From Verrucomicrobiales bacterium (GTDB lineage Bacteria; Verrucomicrobiota; Verrucomicrobiia; Limisphaerales; UBA11320), in NCBI GenBank assembly GCA_016793885.1, contig JAEUHE010000150.1, positions 62,001 through 126,000 on the forward strand: a DNA stretch of 64,000 nucleotides, given 5' to 3'. Numbering within the stretch: position 1 is the stretch's first letter; each line of letters starts with the position of its first letter. Below the pieces are notes generated by a model, which had not been told where the DNA came from, did no database searches, and saw only the letters and a program-made list of their open reading frames with translations. A program made the position numbers and the translations under genes. Shown here piece by piece: positions 32,256 to 41,428 of the stretch.

Positions 32256-32275
32256 TTGCATGACGCAAAATGCAA
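32256..32275. promoter_or_regulatory. overlapping TGCA-palindrome enhancer-like sites
   Basis: TTGCATGACGCAA (32256) and ACGCAAAATGCAA (32263) overlap by six bases. A half-site TTGCAAGAG follows at 32290. They are 65-80 bp upstream of the sigma-54 promoter at 32338. Confidence 0.6.
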
Positions 32276-32337
32276 AGCAATCCGGAGGATTGCAAGAGAC
32301 TCTCGGCGAATCCATAGGACGCATGCGGGCCGCCCGC

Positions 32338-32353
32338 TGGCACCTGTTTTGCT
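32338..32353 (+). promoter_or_regulatory. sigma-54 promoter of the DUF892 protein
   Basis: TGGCACCTGTTTTGCT is an almost perfect -24/-12 element. The predicted start falls three bases before GTG 32367, which implies either a leaderless message or a start further in. Confidence 0.72.
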
Positions 32354-32366
32354 AAAATGTGAAACC

Positions 32367-34115
32367 GTGAAAACTCCCACTCTAACTCTTACCGAGGCCC
32401 CATCCACACCCAAGCCTCCGGGGACCCAGAAGCCCCGGGCCAAGCGCAGGAAGAAATCCAAGCCACGAACTCGAAAAGCTCCCAGTTCCCCACTACAGCG
32501 CATTTTTCTGAGTGAGTTGGCCGATGTTCTTCACGCTGAAAAGCAACAGGTCAAAGCTTTGCCCCTGTTGGCTCGAGCTGTTCACGAACCCGCTCTGAAG
32601 CAGGCGATCAACGATCACGCGAAAGCGACGCGGGAGCATGTGAAACGCGATCAGCAAATTTTCAAACTCTTGGGCAAGCCAGCCCCCCACCGACCCTGCG
32701 TCGGAATGCGCGGAATCATCGGCGAAGCCAGGAAGTCACTCCAAGGTGCCCCTTCGGCCAGCAAGGATGCGCTCATCGTCGCCTCCGCCCAAAAGGCTGA
32801 GCATTATGAGATCGCCACTTATGGAACGCTCCTGGCCTGGGCGAAAACTTTGCAGCAGGACAAAATCACGCAGCTCCTCGAGACGACACTTCGCGAGGAG
32901 GAGTCCACCGATGCGTTGCTCACCCGGATTTCAGAAGCCCGACTCAACCAAGACGCCGCCGATAACAAAACAAACAAACTCAAACCACAACAAAGGACGG
33001 ATATGCCACGCGACAATGAGCCTGTATGGGACAATGCCCCACAGCATCGCCACTCAACTTCTGAACAGGGAGAATATGAACGTGAACGGCACCCCGATGA
33101 ATGGCGTGAAGGTAATGGCCGAAGGTATTTTCCCGAGGACGATGAAGATATAGATTCGCCACGCTCGAGCAGCGGCGGTCGTCATCGTGATGAGGATCGA
33201 GAGGGTCAAGATAGAGACTATGAGCGCTACTCTGACCGGGATCGACCCACCTTCCGGACCGAGTACGACGACAGCCGCCGATCATTCCCTCGGGTTGAAT
33301 ATTCTAACTCCGAACGGGAGGGCGACTGGGATCGAGGGCCCGAGCGTGAGCGTGACGATCACGGAAGATCTCCAACCCGCTCTCGCTCCTCAGCGTCCCG
33401 CGAGGAAGGCGATGATCGCTATTCGGATCACCAAATGAACCGGGGTTCTTCCGGCTGGAGATCTTCCGACACGAGTCGCGACCGGGATCAATATGGTCGG
33501 TTCGAGGGCCAAAACTACGGAGGTGACTCCTCCGCCTACTCCAACGATCGTCGCAGCAGCGCTCGATCCTCCGGATCGTCCTCTGATCGTGACCGGGATA
33601 ATCAAGGACGGTACCGGAGCGAAAATCGTAGTTCCTCCTCGTCGGGTGAAGGCTCCCAGAGGGGGCAAACAGGCCGCTCGGGATACTCTTCGCGAAGCAA
33701 CCAGGACCGGTTTCAGGGTGAGTCCCGATCATCGGCCGATCGCAGCTATGAAACCCGACGTTCTTCTGACGATGCCTCTCGTGGCTCCTCACGCCCGGGT
33801 TCCAACCGTTCAGCTCGAAATCAGGCCGATCAAGGTCGTTATGCGCGGGATCGCGAATCCAATTCTGAGAACCGCTCGCGCAGTTCCAGCCGCAGCGACA
33901 CTCGCGCTGGGGAACGCGACGCCTCCCGACGCCGGACCGGAGTGATCACCGCAGGAGACCATCGCTCGAATCGGGATGAGCAAGGCCGTTTTCGGGGCGA
34001 GGCTGGATCCTCTTCGGCGGGAGACCGGGGTGAGCGATCCTACTCTGACGAAGACGATGACAATCGGACGGGATGGAATCGCCGATCATACTCCTCTTAT
34101 TCCGAAAGCAATTGA
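32367..34115 (+). CDS. DUF892 (YciE/YciF ferritin-like) protein with a long Arg/Ser/Asp-rich tail
   Basis: This protein has about 582 residues. After a basic Lys/Pro/Thr-rich leader (1-45) comes a ferritin-like DUF892 domain of about 160 residues (FLSELADVLHAEKQQVKALPLLARAV; HYEIATYGTLLAWA; EEESTDALL). Known relatives end there at about 170 residues. Here some 370 further residues follow, almost entirely Arg, Ser, Asp, Glu, Gly, Asn and Tyr, and so predicted disordered. A loose motif D-x-x-G-R-[FY]-x-x-[ED] recurs about five times (QYGRFEGQ, NQGRYRSE, EQGRFRGE and others). YciE/YciF proteins are stress-induced. The frame extends upstream to TTG 32256, but the promoter argues for GTG 32367. 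Confidence 0.82.
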   Translation: MKTPTLTLTEAPSTPKPPGTQKPRAKRRKKSKPRTRKAPSSPLQRIFLSELADVLHAEKQQVKALPLLARAVHEPALKQAINDHAKATREHVKRDQQIFKLLGKPAPHRPCVGMRGIIGEARKSLQGAPSASKDALIVASAQKAEHYEIATYGTLLAWAKTLQQDKITQLLETTLREEESTDALLTRISEARLNQDAADNKTNKLKPQQRTDMPRDNEPVWDNAPQHRHSTSEQGEYERERHPDEWREGNGRRYFPEDDEDIDSPRSSSGGRHRDEDREGQDRDYERYSDRDRPTFRTEYDDSRRSFPRVEYSNSEREGDWDRGPERERDDHGRSPTRSRSSASREEGDDRYSDHQMNRGSSGWRSSDTSRDRDQYGRFEGQNYGGDSSAYSNDRRSSARSSGSSSDRDRDNQGRYRSENRSSSSSGEGSQRGQTGRSGYSSRSNQDRFQGESRSSADRSYETRRSSDDASRGSSRPGSNRSARNQADQGRYARDRESNSENRSRSSSRSDTRAGERDASRRRTGVITAGDHRSNRDEQGRFRGEAGSSSAGDRGERSYSDEDDDNRTGWNRRSYSSYSESN

Positions 34116-34992: not shown

Positions 34993-35547
34993 TCAAGGGA
35001 TGCGTCGCAAGGGGCCGCGGTTGGTGTAATAGGGGTAGGGCGGGCGGTCGCGCCAGGCCGGGGGAACGTTCGACCACCAGTTGGGCGGCACATTCGTCAG
35101 AGTGGTGGGGGGAAGGGTGGACCACCATTGTGGAGGCGCGTTGGTCCACCAATGCGGGGGGACATTGGTCCAGAAACGCGGTGGAACGTTCGACCACCAT
35201 CCTGGCGGAACATTGGTTGAGGCAGGATTCAATCCCGCCCACCATCCTGGCGATTGGTTCGTCCACCAGTCTCCCGGCCTCTTGGTCCACCAATCAGGAG
35301 GGAGATTGGTGGAAGGAGGAGGGGGAGGGGGATCAATATTAGGGGGCGGCTCCACCGGAAGCACGGGCCGCTCGGGGATGGGGGGAGTTGTGGGGCGGGC
35401 GGGGGGTGCCGGGATCGCGGGCTCTGCCGGCTTCGCCGGAGTCGCAGGCTTCGCGGGGAGAATGTCGGCTGAAGGGGTTCGCTCCTGAGCATCAGCAATG
35501 CTCCCGACCAGGGTTGCCAATCCCACCCAAAGAATCGCTCGTTTCAT
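34993..35547 (-). CDS. secreted Pro-Pro-x-Trp-Trp repeat protein
   Basis: This is a 184-residue protein. A signal peptide (AILWVGLATLVGSIADA) is followed by a Pro/Ala/Lys-rich linker (PAKPATPAKPAEP) and about eight or nine copies of a short unit close to N-V-P-P-x-W-W-[TS]-N. I know no named family with this repeat. Tandem Trp pairs on a polyproline scaffold suggest binding to a surface polymer such as peptidoglycan or polysaccharide, but this is speculation. An ATG at 35556 is also in frame (three more residues). Confidence 0.75.
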   Translation of the reverse strand: MKRAILWVGLATLVGSIADAQERTPSADILPAKPATPAKPAEPAIPAPPARPTTPPIPERPVLPVEPPPNIDPPPPPPSTNLPPDWWTKRPGDWWTNQSPGWWAGLNPASTNVPPGWWSNVPPRFWTNVPPHWWTNAPPQWWSTLPPTTLTNVPPNWWSNVPPAWRDRPPYPYYTNRGPLRRIP

Positions 35548-35635
35548 GGCTTTCATAATCTGTTCACTCCACCGTTAGGTTTTACTCGTTGCGTCAGCCA
35601 TGACCTGCGCGATCGATCGGCTGCGGTAGTCATCT

Positions 35636-40317: not shown

Positions 40318-40358
40318 GATGCCTTGACGGGTGAAGTTGGCTTTCAGCGTTGGACATC

Positions 40359-40402
40359 CCGCATATTGCGTCGTCATTCAGCGCACTGGTGGCGTTTTGA
40401 AT
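40359..40402. promoter_or_regulatory. paired TGCA-palindrome enhancer-like sites, divergent region
   Basis: CCGCATATTGCGT (40359) and TGGCGTTTTGAAT (40390) have centres 31 bp apart. They sit between the minus-strand promoter at 40317 and the plus-strand promoter at 40456. The second site is degenerate. Confidence 0.48.
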
Positions 40403-40455
40403 GATATTCGAAGCCGATCATGCATCGATTCGTTCTCACTAAGAGAGTTCCGTCC

Positions 40456-40471
40456 TGGCACGCATCCGGCT
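40456..40471 (+). promoter_or_regulatory. sigma-54 promoter of the DUF4142 gene
   Basis: TGGCACGCATCCGGCT has a perfect -24 half. The predicted leader is about 40 bases and A/C-rich. Confidence 0.65.
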
Positions 40472-40522
40472 CTGTGCTGCCAGAGACAAACACGACTTCA
40501 ACAATATATACCTCATCAAATT

Positions 40523-41428
40523 ATGAACCGACCCATTCGTCATTTAGTATTAACAGGCACGTTGTCCACCCTCGCGTGCAGTTTACTCGTCACCGCGGCG
40601 GAGCCGGACAAGGCCAAGGCAGATCGTCGCGATTCAGATCGCGGAGCTTATCAAGACAAGAATAACTCCGGGGCCTCCCGTCCGGATTCCAAGGACAAGG
40701 ACATGGATGCAAGTCCGGAGGGCTTTGTCCGTGCCGCCCTGCTGGGTGGCATGAAAGAAGTTCGCATGAGCGAAATCGCCATGGAGCGTTCAGAAAGCAC
40801 CGAGGTGAAGACCTTCGCGCAACGAATGATCCAGGACCATACCAAGGTCAACAATCAGCTCATGCAGCTCGCTCAACGCCGGGCGTGGACGATGCCTCCC
40901 ACCAATACCTTCCAATCACCCTATGCTTCCGTCGGTGCCAGCGTCGCACCCGGCCGCGACCGGAATGCCCGAACGGAGGATGGGTCCTTGAAGGAGCGGA
41001 ACCGCACCGATGTGGCGGATGCACCGACGACCGACCGGGAGCGTCGCGACTACAACGCGGATCGCCAGATTCGTGGTAAGGACGTAGCGGATAAACAGGC
41101 GCCTGAGGCCCGCTGGGACCGCCTGCAGATGCAAGGTCGGACTTCTCTCGAGGCACTCAAGAACACCCCGACCGCCGAGTTCGATAAGGCTTATGCCCGC
41201 GAGGTCCTGCGTGGCCATTACGCCTCCGTTCAAAAGTATGAACACGCCGCTAAGAACGGTTCTGATGAGGAGGTCCGCACTTTTGCCAAGAATACTCTGC
41301 CGGCCCTGCAGGATCATCATCGTCAGGCCAAACAACTCGCTCAGTCGTTGGGCGTAAGTGTGGAACATCGTGAAGACAAGAAGAGCCCCACCTCTTCCAG
41401 TGATTTCGACAAGCCAAAGTCGGAGTAG
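40523..41428 (+). CDS. DUF4142 periplasmic protein with charged insertion
   Basis: This is a 301-residue protein with a signal peptide (LVLTGTLSTLACSLLVTAAEP). The DUF4142 ferritin-like helices appear in two parts: FVRAALLGGMKEVRMSEIAMERSESTEVKTFAQRMIQDHTKVNNQL near 70-120, and the second half from about 210 (EFDKAYAREVLRGHYASVQKYEHAAKNGSDEEVRTFAKNTLPALQDHH). Between them is a 90-residue Arg/Asp-rich insert that most family members lack. The family is periplasmic and stress-associated, with uncertain function. A strong terminator follows. Confidence 0.9.
   Translation: MNRPIRHLVLTGTLSTLACSLLVTAAEPDKAKADRRDSDRGAYQDKNNSGASRPDSKDKDMDASPEGFVRAALLGGMKEVRMSEIAMERSESTEVKTFAQRMIQDHTKVNNQLMQLAQRRAWTMPPTNTFQSPYASVGASVAPGRDRNARTEDGSLKERNRTDVADAPTTDRERRDYNADRQIRGKDVADKQAPEARWDRLQMQGRTSLEALKNTPTAEFDKAYAREVLRGHYASVQKYEHAAKNGSDEEVRTFAKNTLPALQDHHRQAKQLAQSLGVSVEHREDKKSPTSSSDFDKPKSE

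Follow-up and report, generated by a model that had tools for sequence, protein, structure and literature searches.

YciF and its relatives, which make up the DUF892 family (PF05974), are widespread and stress-linked, with an unsettled function. PDB entries describe YciF as a stress protein. The family shares a ferritin-like helical bundle with Dps and bacterioferritin and is classified separately from both. Long hydrophilic, disordered chains with a likely stress link are represented by hydrophilins, LEA proteins and KGG-repeat proteins (PF10685). Lysine is common in LEA proteins, and the RG/RS tails that bind RNA are Arg-rich and Lys-free.

We analysed a window of 64,000 nucleotides, taken from a 138-kb contig (JAEUHE010000150.1) of a Verrucomicrobiales bacterium (GCA_016793885.1). 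It contains a gene for a DUF892 protein of 582 aa rather than of the ~170 aa typical of the family, a length that is a usual, not a defining, property. The GC content and tetranucleotide profile of the contig match those of other contigs of the genome, and contamination was rejected. The gene is known from one assembly. The features of the gene, together with related remnants on Paracoccus plasmids, are listed in Table 1.

Table 1 Features of the DUF892 gene in the window and of related tail-gene remnants elsewhere.
Feature	Position	Strand	Residues	Basis or remark
Whole gene	32367..34115	+	582 aa	From GTG 32367; start uncertain
N-terminal basic extension	32367..32486	+	aa 1-40	13 K/R, 1 acidic residue; net +12
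DUF892 / YciF ferritin-like domain, five helices	32493..32960	+	aa 43-198	Pfam, alignment, AlphaFold, Foldseek
Junction	32961..33002	+	aa 199-212	Higher AT content than most of the window
Lys-free Arg/Ser/Asp/Gly/Tyr tail, from internal ATG	33003..34112	+	aa 213-582	Composition, AlphaFold
Motif copy DQYGRF	33486..33503	+		
Motif copy DNQGRY	33597..33614	+		
Degenerate copy NQDRF	33699..33713	+		
Motif copy DQGRY	33828..33842	+		
Motif copy DEQGRF, within RDEQGRF	33975..33992	+		RDEQGRF also occurs in the Beijerinckia hemerythrin tail
Broken tail-gene remnants (GGWFG[DRH]PEGHAEA type), immediately after DUF892	L163:2114-2553, L174:1074-1500, L176:592-1109			Paracoccus plasmids

The N-terminal part of the protein was confirmed as the DUF892 ferritin-like domain named in the initial annotation. 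It matched PF05974 with an E-value of 2.1e-43 and 148.5 bits (curated cut-off, 23.7 bits), and no other Pfam match was found in the 582-aa protein, the tail giving none up to E 10. In an alignment of 45 DUF892 sequences, the residues that are invariant (E58, L77, H84, C111, G116, Q142, H146, Y147, Y152, A159, and E178) are all present in the window domain, and the near-invariant E120, E145, and E148 are likewise kept. Judging from the ferritin-like fold, E58, H84, E120, E145, H146, and E178 are the probable metal ligands. With its residues fully conserved, the core probably retains its activity. In the AlphaFold model, pLDDT exceeds 90 throughout the five-helix domain, and the top Foldseek matches were the solved YciF structures 2gyq, 2gs4, 7tmv, and 4eru with target-normalised TM values of 0.87–0.93. 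The domain is 30–46% identical to its relatives. Foldseek similarity to Dps and bacterioferritin was weak, and the protein has no match to a cage-forming family. A K/R-rich extension also precedes the domain in part of the Bacteroidota DUF892 proteins; among 86 DUF892 frames on genome contigs, mostly of Bacteroidota, 22 have an N-terminal extension with a net charge of at least +4.

The remainder of the protein, described at the outset as an Arg/Ser/Asp tail of 370 residues, lies with the domain in a single open frame. The 370 residues include 73 Arg, 73 Ser, 45 Asp, 36 Gly, 33 Glu, and 17 Tyr and no Lys. In 18 other genes of the window, Lys makes up 28% of the basic residues, and the chance of finding none among the 73 of the tail is near 3e-11. 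The suggestion of a disordered polyampholyte is supported by the Uversky index, which classes the tail as disordered, by pLDDT values below 50 in 340 of the 582 residues (nearly all within the tail), and by the charge parameters (FCR 0.41, NCPR -0.014). The kappa value of 0.11–0.15 indicates that opposite charges are well mixed. The recurring D-x-x-G-R-[FY] motif that had been pointed out is also real: the form D-x(1,2)-G-R-[FY] occurs in four copies, compared with 0.10 in shuffled sequences (P about 1e-4). Pfam, NCBIfam, and PHROGs contained no match to the tail, and a literature search with the motif strings gave nothing relevant.

The length of about 170 residues ascribed to known DUF892 proteins agrees with our sample. 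Across 132 other DUF892 frames, the domain is followed by a median of 4 and at most 41 residues, whereas the window protein continues for 384 residues, of which 370 are the Lys-free tail. Two further DUF892 genes, L001 and L003, are located on the same contig, and both are without such a tail. Searches with the tail or its repeat profile found only the genome itself among 293 genomes of the order and 236 and 286 genomes of the class. The tail had no match in 49 genomes reached via related loci or in 316 Bacteroidota genomes, both searched without a positive control, and none in plasmids with low-complexity filtering on; a search for the Paracoccus-type tail, again without a positive control, returned empty answers. 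Chance tail matches in the own genome, order, class, and Bacteroidota did not hold up (L028, for example, overlaps a real membrane-protein frame), and two plasmid matches to a short tail piece were at chance level. Plasmid DUF892 matches that run past the domain in Rhizobium, Sinorhizobium, Mesorhizobium, and Methylobacterium are, where annotated, genes of 163–207 aa without such a tail. The combination of domain and tail is real in the sequence analysed and rare, and it is a variant of the known DUF892 family. The initial annotation considered this combination unusual, which applies to DUF892, as it was present in no other sampled member, but not to the tail type, which is found again on alphaproteobacterial proteins of the hemerythrin type. 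In the proposed search for homologues with both parts, no other sampled DUF892 protein had the tail, and hemerythrin-type fusions carried similar tails.

A query written around the motif had a single plasmid match, the Beijerinckia indica protein WP_012382971.1, which consists of a hemerythrin domain (E 1.5e-14) and a 281-aa tail. Since the short query was designed in this way, the motif match is not independent evidence; the absence of Lys and the attached helical-bundle domain are. A piece of the Beijerinckia tail led to WP_230376845.1 (Paracoccus sp. MA) and WP_100526157.1 (P. aminovorans), in which a hemerythrin-like part is followed by tails of 228 and 236 aa, respectively. The N-terminal parts of the two Paracoccus proteins are weakly similar to the Beijerinckia hemerythrin part (E 3e-6 and 2e-4), and the one examined against Pfam had no match. 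By eye, several of the usual metal-ligand His residues seem to be lost from the hemerythrin-like, Lys-free-tailed Paracoccus proteins (L172:2186-3583 and L175:1257-2597).

The three alphaproteobacterial tails contain no Lys, have NCPR values of -0.004 to -0.028, and carry two or three D-x(1,2)-GR[FY] motifs each. Including that of the window, all four tails begin at a Met at the domain boundary, are devoid of Lys, and have 2–4 motifs. We define an unnamed class of Lys-free R-D-x-x-G-R-F tails from these four proteins; the window tail shows its features, namely no Lys, near-zero net charge, at least two D-x(1,2)-GR[FY] motifs, and a Met where domain and tail join. The hemerythrin proteins thus resemble the window protein in the order of a bundle, a Met, and a Lys-free, neutral Arg/Asp/Gly/Ser/Tyr tail with R-D-x-x-G-R-F, and differ from it in the family of the N-terminal domain. 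The GGWFGDPEGHAEAARRGW-type repeat is present in the alphaproteobacterial tails and absent from the window tail. BLAST gave no support for homology of the window tail to the Beijerinckia tail, as their alignment scored 68.9 bits and shuffled sequences reach 91.7 bits. A shared stretch of at least 7 residues, here RDEQGRF, arises in 1.5–2.7% of shuffles. The likeness shown between the window and alphaproteobacterial tails is one of composition and layout. It suggests that tail-bearing stress proteins of unrelated bacteria form a small class that has no name as yet. Two viral loci matched by the Beijerinckia tail piece were rejected, short pieces alone being in common. One viral contig (L170:18-2486) encodes an 822-residue protein with AWFGDPEGHARAAALRG and GWRGDPQGHAEAARERW, short pieces resembling the alphaproteobacterial tail repeat.

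At the junction between domain and tail, an out-of-frame TAA (32963) directly follows the domain at the place where most relatives end, so that a one-base indel would split the domain from the tail. The GC content of the spacer falls in the lowest 2.5% of 44-nt windows, and AAAGGA precedes the internal ATG. On three Paracoccus plasmids, one from P. ferrooxidans and two from P. versutus, the gene immediately after DUF892 is of the tail type, has a GGWFG-type repeat, and is broken and frameshifted. The annotation of one of these remnants (L163) splits it into two short hypothetical proteins. The gene for the tailed, hemerythrin-like protein of Paracoccus sp. MA, like that of P. aminovorans, lies ~1–2 kb from a DUF892 gene and near a sigma-70-family sigma factor. 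Because DUF892 and a broken tail-type gene adjoin in Paracoccus, and because the window domain ends where its relatives end and is followed by TAA, spacer, and ATG, the window gene probably arose when a DUF892 gene and an adjacent tail gene merged in frame.

The same layout could instead reflect two genes, a DUF892 gene ending near 32963 and a tail gene starting at ATG 33003, that were joined by a single-base error of the assembly or by a very recent indel, or else one frame with an internal start that yields both a fused and a free tail. We regard this alternative as possible but rather unlikely. The exact placement of the out-of-frame TAA, the AT-richer spacer with AAAGGA, and the adjoining genes on some Paracoccus plasmids are in its favour, as is the strong in-frame Shine-Dalgarno sequence at the Paracoccus tail ATG (-10.3 kcal/mol). 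That of the window ATG, however, is ordinary, with 21–29% of all ATGs scoring equally well; the single frame is intact in the sequence analysed; and in independent Beijerinckia and Paracoccus plasmid records, hemerythrin-type domains are fused to tails in the same arrangement.

The gene neighbourhood and the PDB description of YciF point to a stress setting for the window protein. A DUF4142 gene is located at 40331-41428 of the window. The DUF892 loci of Paracoccus and Mesorhizobium include a sigma-70-family sigma factor, and that of Mesorhizobium also a PRC-barrel gene. A PRC-barrel/BON-type protein was noticed by eye upstream of the L003 DUF892 gene. The minus strand of the window at 34993-35556 encodes a Pro/Trp-rich protein of 187 residues in which N-V-P-P-x-W-W-[ST]-like units recur and which has no Pfam match. 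Within the same genus, the neighbouring SDR gene matches at only 33–37%, and synteny provided no empty-site comparison.

We favour, with evenly balanced confidence, the reading that the gene encodes a YciF/DUF892 stress protein with a long disordered tail gained by in-frame merger, of a type also found on hemerythrin-like proteins, and that the tail would function as a bristle. The core would dimerise like known YciF proteins and thereby present two tails. Under stress, the tails may form hydrated bristles that stick weakly to one another by Arg-Tyr/Phe and Arg-Asp contacts; the bristles would either keep the protein soluble or collect it into condensates. The metal/oxidation-handling core could thus be concentrated where its neighbours are given protection, and the basic N-terminal arm may touch nucleic acid.

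Alternatively, the tail might be a hydrophilin- or LEA-like desiccation shield, with the DUF892 core serving merely as a carrier or dimeriser. The hydrophilic and disordered nature of the tail, in which only 7 of the 370 residues are Ile, Leu, Val, or Met, fits this possibility, as does the occurrence of DUF892 in stress-type gene neighbourhoods. We nevertheless consider it unlikely: the tail has no profile match to the LEA or KGG families (PF10685 was also without a match in the genome itself), it contains no Lys, a residue common in LEA proteins, and the core is fully conserved and probably active. It is still more doubtful that the protein is a Dps-like nucleoid guard that binds nucleic acid through its tail and basic N-terminus. 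Although the tail is Arg-rich and Lys-free like RG/RS tails, the N-terminal arm is strongly basic, and the fold distantly resembles that of Dps, acidic residues are as many as basic ones in the tail, its first 74 residues have a net charge of -0.15 per residue, and no Dps-type family match was found. Of the roles that the initial annotation suggested for such tails (phase separation, DNA coating, and protection in drying), DNA coating by a plain polycation is argued against by the near-zero net charge.

The forward frame 32256-34115 is single and stop-free; a TTG at 32256 is an alternative in-frame start that would give 619 aa, and the Shine-Dalgarno match is poor or weak at both this TTG and the GTG at 32367. 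None of 5,000 Markov simulations produced a stop-free stretch of 370 codons, and codon usage by itself gives the tail frame weak support. Nucleotide differences among the motif copies number 27, 18, and 42 at codon positions 1, 2, and 3, respectively, third positions varying most. DNA tandem repeats were sought in the tail and none was found, and expansion of a DNA-level repeat was rejected as its origin for this reason. The stop-free codons, the third-position bias, and the absence of tandem repeats support the tail frame, and an untranslated, spurious extension, to which the weak codon-usage score of the frame might point, is highly improbable in view of these codons and differences, the strong composition bias, and the annotated proteins with the same tail type elsewhere.

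A broader form of the bristle reading, which we put forward only tentatively and regard as quite unlikely, would be a class of bacterial stress proteins, recurrent and as yet undescribed, whose metal-type four-helix bundles (DUF892, hemerythrin) received Lys-free Arg/Asp polyampholyte bristles from a tail gene that is mobile; retention of an internal start would give fused and free tails, and the bristles would build stress condensates round an iron/oxidation-handling core. The interest of the window protein comes mainly from the recurrence of its tail type on other helical-bundle stress proteins. Its presence on hemerythrin-like proteins of another phylum points to a functional partnership of metal-type helical bundles with a Lys-free disordered chain, and the proteins described here are concrete ones in which condensation, drying protection, and nucleic-acid contact by such tails can be studied in bacteria.
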